Shown here piece by piece: positions 39,976-42,884 of a stretch of 64,000 nucleotides of DNA; position 1 is the stretch's first letter; each line of letters starts with the position of its first letter. The stretch comes from Streptomyces alboniger (GTDB taxonomy: Bacteria > Actinomycetota > Actinomycetes > Streptomycetales > Streptomycetaceae). The stretch is from the NCBI RefSeq assembly GCF_008704395.1, contig NZ_CP023695.1, forward strand, positions 1,736,001-1,800,000, given 5' to 3'. Made by a program: the position numbers and the translations under genes. A model generated the notes under the pieces. That model was not told the origin of the DNA, ran no database searches, and saw only the letters and a list, made by a program, of their open reading frames with translations.

Positions 39976-41277
39976 ATGGAACACATCACGCTTCTCCTCG
40001 GGATCGTGATCGTCACCGCTCTCGTGTTCGATTTCACGAACGGTTTCCACGACACTGCCAACGCGATGGCGACGACCATCTCGACCGGCGCTCTCAAGCC
40101 CAAGACGGCGGTGGCCATGTCCGCCGTGCTGAACCTCGTCGGAGCCTTCCTCTCCGTCGAAGTCGCCAAGACGATCTCCGGCGGCATCGTCAACGAGGAC
40201 GGCCTCAAGACCGAGGTCATCTTCGCCGCGCTCGTCGGCGCGATCCTCTGGAATCTGCTGACCTGGCTGGTGGGCCTGCCCTCCAGCTCCTCCCACGCCC
40301 TCTTCGGCGGCCTCATCGGCGCCGCGGTCATGTCGATGGGCTGGTCGTCGATCAACGGCGGCACCGTCGTCACCAAGGTGCTGATCCCGGCCCTCGCCGC
40401 GCCGCTCGTGGCGGGTCTCGCCGCGACACTGGCGACGCGCCTGACGTACCGCATCGGCCGCAACACCGACACCAGGGCGACGGCCAAGGGCTACCGCGCG
40501 GGCCAGATCGCCTCCGCGGGCCTCGTCTCGCTGGCGCACGGCACGAACGACGCGCAGAAGACCATGGGCATCATCACGCTCGCCCTGGTCACCGGCGGTG
40601 TCCTGAACCCGGGCGCGAACCCCCCGATGTGGGTCATCGTCTCGGCCGGTGTGGCCATCGCCCTCGGCACCTACCTCGGCGGCTGGCGCATCATCCGCAC
40701 CATGGGCAAGGGCCTCACCGACCTCCAGCCGCAGCAGGGCTTCGCCGCCCAGACCAGCGCCGCGACGGTCATCCTGGCCTCCTCGCACCTGGGCTTCTCG
40801 CTCTCCACCACCCAGTCCTGCTCCGGCGCCGTGATGGGCGCGGGCCTCGGCCGCAAGGGCGGCGTGGTCCGCTGGTCGACCGCGACCCGGATGTTCGTCG
40901 CGTGGGGTCTGACCCTGCCGGCCGCCGGTCTGGTCGGCGCGGGCGCCGAGTTCCTCACCAAGCAGGGCCCCTGGGGCATCGCGGTCACCGCGGCGCTCCT
41001 GATCGCCGGCTCGGCCGTCATCTGGGCGCTCTCGCGGCGCAACTCCGTGGACCACACCAACGTCACCGACGACGAGATCCGCCACGGCCACGACACCGCG
41101 GGCACCGAGCCCGTGGGCGTCGTGACCACCGCGATCGCCGCCGTCCAGCCGCCCCCGGCCGGCCCGCTGGCCGCCGTGGGGGCCCCCTCCGACGACCCGG
41201 TCAAGGCCACCATCGCGGCCCCGACCTCGACCACGACCGGCGCCATGGCGGACCCCGCCCGGCCCGCGACGGTGTAA
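39976..41277 (+). CDS. pit: Inorganic phosphate transporter PitA
   Basis: Low-affinity phosphate (metal-phosphate) symporter of the Pit family, 433 residues, about ten membrane helices. The two family repeats are TNGFHDTANAMATTISTGAL near the N-terminus and SLAHGTNDAQKTMGI in the second half, both containing the phosphate-binding Asn-Asp pairs; GLPSSSSHALFGGL and STTQSCSGAVMGAG are the matching helical hairpins. The cytosolic C-terminus is Ala/Pro-rich. A PHO box upstream suggests PhoP control, and the small gene behind is co-transcribed (12 bases). Confidence 0.95.
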   Translation: MEHITLLLGIVIVTALVFDFTNGFHDTANAMATTISTGALKPKTAVAMSAVLNLVGAFLSVEVAKTISGGIVNEDGLKTEVIFAALVGAILWNLLTWLVGLPSSSSHALFGGLIGAAVMSMGWSSINGGTVVTKVLIPALAAPLVAGLAATLATRLTYRIGRNTDTRATAKGYRAGQIASAGLVSLAHGTNDAQKTMGIITLALVTGGVLNPGANPPMWVIVSAGVAIALGTYLGGWRIIRTMGKGLTDLQPQQGFAAQTSAATVILASSHLGFSLSTTQSCSGAVMGAGLGRKGGVVRWSTATRMFVAWGLTLPAAGLVGAGAEFLTKQGPWGIAVTAALLIAGSAVIWALSRRNSVDHTNVTDDEIRHGHDTAGTEPVGVVTTAIAAVQPPPAGPLAAVGAPSDDPVKATIAAPTSTTTGAMADPARPATV

Positions 41278-41289
41278 GGACACATCAGC

Positions 41290-41514
41290 ATGAACATCGA
41301 CTGGGCAGCTCTCGGCTCCGTCTTCGGAGTCAGCCTCGCCGTGACGGTGGCTCTCGTGGGCCTGTTCACCCTCGGCATCATCGGTCTCTCCAAGCAGGAG
41401 ACGGCGTCCGCGTCGGGCGGCGGCTCCGCGGCCATGGCGCGCACCGGCGCGTACGCCTGCTTCGCGCTCTGCGCGGCGGCCGTGGCGTACGGGATCTATC
41501 TGATCGTCGCCTGA
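41290..41514 (+). CDS. Small membrane protein following pit
   Basis: Protein of 74 residues, two helices (about 8-33 and 50-72) with a polar loop KQETASASGGGSA, and no known family. It begins 12 bases after pit with its own ATG 41290 and would be co-transcribed, so it may be a subunit or regulator of the phosphate transporter. It ends four bases before the 80-base palindrome. Confidence 0.72.
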   Translation: MNIDWAALGSVFGVSLAVTVALVGLFTLGIIGLSKQETASASGGGSAAMARTGAYACFALCAAAVAYGIYLIVA

Positions 41515-41517
41515 GGG

Positions 41518-41597
41518 CAGCGGGGCCCGCATACGACGGTGGGGGTGCGGGACGTGTACACGTCCCGCACCCCCACCGTCGTATGCGGGCCCCGCTG
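41518..41597. repeat. Perfect 80-base palindrome (40-base arms, no spacer)
   Basis: Bases 41518-41557 are the exact reverse complement of 41558-41597; the centre is GTGT/ACAC. The structure directly follows the stop of the pit-linked membrane protein and precedes the cobalamin riboswitch. As RNA it would fold into one very stable hairpin of nearly 40 pairs and could end transcription from either side. Perfect arms of this length with no mismatch are unusual. Confidence 0.9.
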
Positions 41598-41639
41598 TGG
41601 AGCGCCGCTGTGGGGCTCCGCACACTCTCCCGCCGCAGG

Positions 41640-41825
41640 TCAACGGCGAGTTGACGGGCGTTCGCGGGGCGTGGTGGACTGCCGGGGCCAACTACGGCGG
41701 CAGAAGAGGAAGCCGGTGCGAATCCGGCGCGGTCCCGCCACTGTCACCGGGAAGCCACGACGCTCCCCGGAAGCCAGGAACTCTCGCCGCCGATCACGTC
41801 GAACCAGGGCGCGGACACCCTGAGT
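41640..41825 (+). ncRNA. Cobalamin riboswitch
   Basis: Leader RNA with the hallmarks of the adenosylcobalamin riboswitch: GAAGCCGGTGCGAATCCGGC followed by GCGGTCCCGCCACTGT (41715-41744), and the B12-box-type segment GAAGCCAGGAACTCTCGCCGC (41770-41790, abbreviated). It lies about 90 bases ahead of the first cobalamin gene and would repress the operon when cobalamin is abundant. The 5' and 3' limits are approximate. Confidence 0.88.
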
Positions 41826-41839
41826 GAGGACATATCGCC

Positions 41840-41908
41840 ATGCGCGGCCGCCCGTTGCCGGACCAGTTCCCGAGCGTCAGCTCCCTCCTCCGCACGACGA
41901 CGGGCTGA
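41840..41908 (+). CDS. Possible 22-residue leader ORF between riboswitch and cobD
   Basis: ATG 41840 opens a 22-codon frame (MRGRPLPDQFPSVSSLLRTTTG) that stops four bases before the cobD ATG. GAGG lies about 10 bases upstream of its ATG and it starts right after the riboswitch. Translation of this leader could couple the riboswitch to cobD expression. No similarity to a known peptide can be judged here; it may be a chance frame. Confidence 0.4.
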   Translation: MRGRPLPDQFPSVSSLLRTTTG

Positions 41909-41912
41909 GCCC

Positions 41913-42884
41913 ATGAGTGCCGACCGCGACTTCGCGTACGGCGCCGCCGCCGGCCTCCTCGGCGACCTGCTGCTCGGCGATCCCCGCCGGGGCCATCCGG
42001 TCGCCGCGTTCGGGCGTACGGCGGCCGCCGTCGAGCGGGCGCTGTGGCGGGACCACCGCGGGTGGGGCGCGCTGCACGCCGTGGTGTGTGCCGGGGGCGC
42101 GGCGGGTGCCGCCACCCTCGCCGCTCGTCTTGTACGCCGTTCCCCCGCCGCGTCCGTCGCGCTGACCGCCGCCGCGACCTGGGCCGTGGTCGGCGGTACC
42201 TCGCTCGGCCGGGAGGCGCGGGCCATCGGCGGGGCGCTGGCCGCCGGTGACGTGGAGGTGGCCCGGGAGCGGCTGCCCCATCTGTGCGGGCGGGATCCGC
42301 AGGCGCTGGACTCCGACGGGATCGCGCGCGCCGTCGTCGAGTCCGTCGCCGAGAACACCTCCGACGCGGTGGTCGGCGCCCTGGTGTGGGGTGCCGTCGG
42401 CGGGGTGCCGGGGCTCGTCGCCTTCCGCGCCGTGAACACCCTCGACGCCATGGTCGGCCACAAGTCGCCCAAGTACCGCCGCTACGGCTGGGCCTGCGCC
42501 CGGCTCGACGACGTCCTCGGGTGGCCGGGGGCGCGGCTCACCGCCGCCCTGGCCGCTCTCGCGGGGGACGCGCCCGCCGGAGCCGTGCGGGCGTGGCGGG
42601 CCGATGCCGCGAAGCATCCGAGCCCCAACGCCGGGCCCGTCGAGGCGGCCTTCGCCGGGGCGCTGGGCGTGCGGCTGGGCGGGACCCTCTCGTACGCGGG
42701 GCGCGTCGAGCACCGGCCCGTGCTGAACGCGGACGGCCGGGACGTCGGCGTCGAGGACATCGAGCGGGCCGTGAAGCTGTCGCGGCGGGTCAGCTGGCTG
42801 GCGCTGGGAGTCGCGGTGGCGGCCCGCCGGGTGCTGCGCTCGGCGAACACCCCACGGTCGGCGAAGTCAGGGAGAAACTCATGA
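41913..42884 (+). CDS. cobD: Adenosylcobinamide-phosphate synthase CobD/CbiB
   Basis: Integral membrane enzyme that attaches the aminopropanol arm (or aminopropanol phosphate) to adenosylcobyric acid, 323 residues with several membrane helices. Family signatures seen are [21 protein letters not shown] (first 40 residues), [16 protein letters not shown] with the conserved Asn-Thr-Ser-Asp, [23 protein letters not shown], and near the end [24 protein letters not shown] 41913 follows the leader ORF. The stop overlaps the ATG of cobQ (ATGA), so this is the first enzyme gene of a riboswitch-controlled operon. Confidence 0.93.

Follow-up and report, generated by a model that had tools for sequence, protein, structure and literature searches.

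The palindrome described here lies in a 64-kb window, by which we mean the whole stretch of DNA that was analysed, and is placed between a phosphate-transport (pit) operon and a cobalamin unit (Table 1). This is the position that the first-pass annotation had given it. The transporter of the pit unit is probably of the PitH2 type, a label inferred from its length of 433 aa, compared with 423 aa for S. coelicolor PitH2 in the accessible part of PMC7866108. The ORF that closes the unit encodes 74 aa, matched no Pfam family, and has matches beside pit in 238 of the 246 genomes sampled from the genus; the palindrome starts 3 nt past its stop codon (41512-41514). On the other side, ahead of the riboswitch, a GTCAAC-N5-GTTGAC repeat overlaps a -35-like TTGAC and is followed by GTGGTGGACT. 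The 141 pit loci collected gave 130 distinct downstream sequences, and in 105 of these the repeat was found ahead of the riboswitch when up to 2 errors were allowed. It is likely to be a promoter or operator of the cobalamin unit, and we treat it as a candidate for that role. Between the hairpin and this promoter region, a TGTG...CACA inverted repeat was noticed by eye in the majority of the orthologous sequences inspected, often with CTCTCCC after it.

Table 1. Features of the pit-cobalamin interval, in window coordinates.
Feature	Position	Strand	Evidence
Low-affinity phosphate transporter, PHO4/Pit family, probably PitH2-type	39976..41277	+	Pfam PF01384, E 1.2e-86
Conserved 74-aa ORF, final gene of the pit unit	41290..41514	+	genus-wide matches
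Palindrome left arm (5′ side of stem)	41518..41557	+	inverted-repeat search
Left-arm segment GGCCCGCATACGA, putative inverted copy of the right flank	41524..41536	+	sequence comparison
Inner stem, 21-bp arms, matching the G163/G093 hairpin	41537..41578	+	sequence comparison
Palindrome right arm (3′ side of stem)	41558..41597	+	inverted-repeat search
Right-arm segment TCGTATGCGGGCC, similar to the post-hairpin flank of several relatives	41579..41591	+	sequence comparison
TGTG...CACA short inverted repeat, after the hairpin and ahead of the promoter region	41609..41624	+	by eye
GTCAAC-N5-GTTGAC repeat, candidate promoter/operator	41639..41655	+	pattern search
Cobalamin riboswitch	41666..41785	+	RF00174, 46.6 bits vs gathering score 31.5
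CobD/CbiB gene, behind the riboswitch	41913..42884	+	PF03186, E 1.7e-89

An inverted-repeat search confirmed what had been claimed from inspection of the letters, an exact palindrome of 80 bases: the two arms are 40 nt each, 100% complementary, without mismatch and with a 0-nt spacer. No inverted repeat listed for the window is longer, and the next perfect one among 25 of the 26 pairs has 15-bp arms. As RNA, a 121-nt stretch that includes it is predicted to fold at -111.2 kcal/mol, compared with a shuffle mean of -60.3 (z = -12.95). Within the palindrome the predicted fold consists of 38 continuous pairs and a 4-nt loop. A chance origin is excluded, since a first-order Markov simulation of 2.064 Mb, run once, reached a perfect arm of only 13 bp. 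The palindrome is single-copy in the genome; the one other match is weak (37-38 nt at 84%), lies near 875.6 kb, is found on both strands and looks coding-like by eye. There was no match in plasmid and phage collections, and a repeat or mobile element of the REP or MITE kind was rejected on these grounds. At the right-hand edge, CCGCTGTGG is present twice within 41592-41613, once as the end of the right arm and again 13 nt further on, an arrangement that resembles a small tandem duplication.

In the terms used for bacterial transcription ends, the palindrome is a stable, GC-rich stem-loop downstream of a stop codon, as judged from its position, the repeat search and the predicted fold. It is not a canonical Rho-independent terminator, in which a stem is followed by a U-tract: there is no T run after the full stem, and the tail, TGGAGCGC, has one T in 8 nt. 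A terminator scan of 41000-42000 did not call the palindrome and returned one site only, at 41712-41728 on the minus strand. The count of one T does place it in the U-poor class, defined by a stem with fewer than 3 U in the 8 nt that follow, which has been compared with I-shaped terminators in the accessible text of PMC8269248. Term-seq data, as described in the part of PMC12207403 available to us, indicate that Streptomyces terminators are long and U-poor and show covariation, and the corresponding part of PMC4681348 reports that short abundant RNAs of S. coelicolor map to palindromes, many of them in 3′ UTRs.

Conservation of the hairpin was assessed at the orthologous site, using pit loci from named genomes (the best 80 of 582 relatives). 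The 25 of 130 unique sequences that lack the promoter repeat were left out, several of them being low-identity and probably paralogous pit loci, as were two of the remaining 105 with a region shorter than 40 nt, which gave a set of 103 with the window included. Twelve further loci, L245-L256, did not enter the comparison. A stem score of at least 12 was reached in 77 of the 103 sequences, as opposed to 4 of 515 dinucleotide shuffles (medians 15 vs 6); the other 26 fell below the threshold. Of the 77 stems, 51 are perfect (median 18 bp), and a 4-nt loop closes 33 of the 77. Their pairs comprise 1420 Watson-Crick, 14 G-U-type and 16 others, an excess that is partly built in because the stem score penalises pairs other than Watson-Crick. 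The position of the stem after the stop codon is kept in the orthologues while its letters change, and at least 3 T occur in the 8 nt after the stem in 35 of the 77, compared with 11.7% of positions further downstream. The idea of a hairpin at the end of the pit operon, which would act as an insulator, is supported by its position and by the recurrence of a stem at the same place.

Perfect stems of 31 bp (L039) and 24 bp (L007) are present at this site in other assemblies. G163 and G093, the two nearest relatives among the loci compared, have pit DNA 95.9% and 95.8% identical to that of the window; their stems are 19 bp and 15 bp long, respectively, both with a 4-nt loop. The inner stem of the window lies at the same place and has one more G/C on each arm. 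This comparison shows that the inner 21 bp of the palindrome correspond to the hairpin that relatives keep at the pit site with changing letters.

The length of the palindrome was set against other hairpins of the same genome, using 100 stretches of 20 kb together with the window (2.064 Mb, 26% of the genome) and loops of at most 10 nt. Perfect-hairpin arms form a declining series of 40, 31, 27, 26, 25, 24, 23, 22 (2), 21 (4) and 20 (2) bp, and onward. On the basis of hairpin midpoints and a crude gene prediction (60 aa, GC3 rule), the 15 hairpins with arms of at least 20 bp all have their centres outside predicted genes, 7 of them between genes that converge and 8 between genes in tandem. An exponential fit made without the 40-bp case gives 0.14 hairpins of at least 40 bp expected per genome, and it underestimates the tail, with 0.70 of at least 30 bp expected vs 2 seen. 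Perfect arms reach no more than 31 bp in 80 loci of relatives with named records (559,861 bases; the best 80 of 582). From the declining series, the gene-end placement, the fit of the tail and the maximum in relatives, we regard the palindrome as a length outlier within a population of gene-end hairpins. The uniqueness implied in the first-pass annotation does not hold, since long perfect hairpins recur at gene ends of the same genome; its statement that ordinary terminators have arms of 9-15 bp is correct for the perfect repeats of the window and fails for the genome, where arms of 31, 27, 26, 25, 24 and 23 bp were found in the 26% sampled. An accumulation of perfect inverted repeats at gene ends is also reported in the accessible part of a survey of 118,019 genomes (PMC13155455).

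The sites of the 31-, 27-, 26- and 25-bp hairpins were examined by comparing the neighbouring gene in ten related genomes each. An arm of at least 12 positions with at most one mismatch followed the related gene in 8, 8, 5 and 9 of the 10 (30 of 40 loci; this count has no shuffle control and scores as misses a few loci, L266, L275 and L284, that seem truncated, mis-framed or paralogous). Letters often differ among the related arms. Long stems are found here as well: L288 has 32 bp with one mismatch, and L295 has 29 bp, perfect and with no spacer (site of the 25-bp hairpin of L170).

The two sides of the outer stem compare differently with relatives. On the left, GGCCCGCATACGA has no counterpart in the left flanks of relatives, and only the outermost CAGCGG (41518-41523) does have one, in G093. 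On the right, TCGTATGCGGGCC is similar to sequence at the hairpin base or behind it, TCGTATGTGGGCC and variants of it, in G279 (L123), L117, L118, L026 and L041. In alignments to the flanks of 76 relatives, the mean score was above that of 300 shuffles for right flanks (p 0.03) and not for left flanks (p 0.62), with kinship ignored. The account that best fits these observations is a template switch during replication, by which the old right flank would have been copied in inverted form into the outer left arm.

This explanation was put to a switch test in which the G093 left flank served as the earlier state and 8 relatives, hand-chosen out of 76, served as donors, with 60 shuffles each. A single inverted copy reduced the distance to the window from 13 edits to 3 (L123, L117), 4 (L026, L041) or 5 (L009). 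Shuffled donors matched those gains in 0 of 60 cases for L123, L117, L026 and L041 and in 1 of 60 for L009. The remaining donors, L008, L126 and L144, brought 13 edits to 6 and gave no gain over shuffles (35, 35 and 18 of 60); L008 stands for G163, which together with G093 is nearest to the window. The window's own right arm, tried as donor, takes 13 edits to 1 (G093) and 14 to 2 (G163); as this is circular, it was set aside for donors from other species. Copying in the reverse direction, from left to right on the G163 right flank, did no better than shuffles for any of the 8 donors. When edit costs on the left and right were summed, right-to-left copying was cheaper for 5 of 10 relatives and left-to-right copying for the other 5. 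A pattern of right flank kept and left flank changed could also arise from constraint on the right flank.

A second case was found at the same site in Streptomyces sp. adm13(2018), the source of the 31-bp stem of L039. L028 (genome G162) is 96.5% identical to L039 over 1193 nt of the pit region; the two have a 19-bp core, the loop and the right flank in common, and they differ in the left flank. Replacing 11 nt of the L028 left flank with 12 nt of its inverted right flank yields L039 exactly, taking 6 edits to 0, and none of 300 shuffled donors did so. There is no circularity in this test, since L028 itself supplies the donor. One event would have added 12 bp of stem between L028 and L039. From the more distant L020, one switch gains little on the way to L039 (12 edits to 10).

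Taken together, these comparisons make a good case for a recent copy from arm to arm, in a palindrome that appears real, ordinary in kind and extreme in length. The very recent origin or maintenance by gene conversion suggested at first finds support in one specific form, that of an arm-to-arm template switch, as seen with five of the eight window donors and in the step from L028 to L039.

Since stems recur at the orthologous site and Term-seq papers describe ends of this kind, we read the palindrome as the 3′-end hairpin of the pit operon. In our judgement it is probably a U-poor, I-shaped terminator and mRNA end protector whose outer 19 bp came from a template switch. The plus-strand transcript would fold into the 38-bp stem and 4-nt loop right after the last stop codon, and the stem would stall and release RNA polymerase, block 3′ exonucleases, or both. 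Transcription would terminate here, and the hairpin would then keep pit transcripts out of the cobalamin leader. As for its origin, the replicating strand may have folded back along the earlier hairpin and used the right flank as template for an inverted copy in the left flank, before it resumed on its correct template at a short shared sequence; the outer 19 bp would be the new stem that this left behind. dnaA is at 3.97 Mb and the palindrome at 1.78 Mb; with an origin beside dnaA, the fork would run to lower coordinates and the nascent leading strand would be the minus strand, so that copying from right to left would point, on the basis of one or two events, to the nascent leading strand.

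Other roles for the structure were weighed against that of a terminator. RNase III targets among Streptomyces mRNAs are treated in the literature, and a perfect duplex of about 38 bp is a typical substrate of the enzyme; both points count for an AbsB-type RNase III that cleaves the duplex and sets the stability of pit mRNA rather than ending transcription. However, 39 of the 51 perfect stems at the pit site are shorter than 20 bp, which makes processing unlikely as the ancestral role, and as an account of the palindrome we likewise consider it unlikely. Perfect palindromes can extrude as cruciforms, and the element might act purely in DNA, as a cruciform, a protein-binding site or the target of a mobile element, with no part played by RNA. 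The lone weak match in the genome, the lack of any in the plasmid and phage collections, and the retention of position after the stop codon while letters change all argue against such an element, and we hold it to be extremely unlikely.

Two further alternatives concern how the arms came to be perfect. An assembly fold-back or consensus artefact, over a true locus with a hairpin of 15-20 bp like that of relatives, would yield zero spacer and perfect arms, and the stems of only 19 and 15 bp in the two nearest relatives are in its favour. Against this, the genome is one contig in which both flanks run on into orthologous sequence as expected, other assemblies have the inner stem too, and long perfect stems occur in other assemblies at this site (L039, L007) and elsewhere (L295 and, with one mismatch, L288). 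The fold-back raised by the first-pass annotation is in our estimation very unlikely. Alternatively, stepwise compensatory selection for an ever more stable RNA end could have lengthened the stem in place of a single mutation. That orthologous stems are kept with other letters speaks for this, as does the covariation published for Streptomyces terminators (PMC12207403, accessible part). In L039, on the other hand, the extra pairs make up a single block that matches the inverted L028 right flank exactly, and stepwise growth seems to us distinctly unlikely.

The arm-to-arm template switch suggests how stems at bacterial gene ends could become very long and perfect and then remain so, and L028 and L039 provide a concrete, checkable species pair for stem growth by one inferred event. 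More tentatively, and with slightly less than even confidence, we propose that mRNA-end hairpins of Streptomyces are kept long and perfect mainly by leading-strand template switching, which would repeatedly rewrite one arm from the other and could absorb the old terminator tail into the stem. Stems would then lengthen in sudden steps, of which the 40-bp palindrome would be a recent one. If the process is general, apparent covariation in Streptomyces terminators may be due partly to mutation rather than selection, with consequences for the inference of RNA structure. Among the titles listed in a literature search, which covered few subscription journals, none concerned template switching in bacterial terminator hairpins.

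Among known systems, the palindrome is most readily compared with the U-poor "HS-U-lack" or I-shaped terminators of Streptomyces (PMC8269248, PMC12207403, PMC6742748, each as far as its accessible text goes), with which it has in common a GC-rich hairpin after the stop codon, a short loop and few U. It differs from them in its 80 nt, compared with a hairpin median of 32-35 nt in Streptomyces (20-28 in most other species, 33 in E. faecalis; PMC12207403, same part), in having no spacer at the DNA level, and in that its 3′ end is a predicted one. In its proposed origin it resembles the RNA hairpins attributed to template switching in the available part of PMC8794818, where a perfect stem is created or lengthened in a single event by inverted copying of a segment close by; the cases described there are rRNA genes, bacteria included, and a microRNA, whereas the present one is a hairpin at the end of a bacterial mRNA. 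It is also similar to quasipalindrome-associated mutation in E. coli, in which copying of the nascent strand makes an imperfect inverted repeat more perfect, with a strand bias reported (PMC7202029, in the portion accessible). That work used laboratory reporters, while the event proposed here would have taken place between species and extended the stem beyond its old end. An origin of this kind fits what the accessible parts of both studies lead one to expect of template switching, namely that a nascent strand, folded back on a hairpin already present, goes on copying beyond the end of that hairpin (PMC8794818, PMC7202029).
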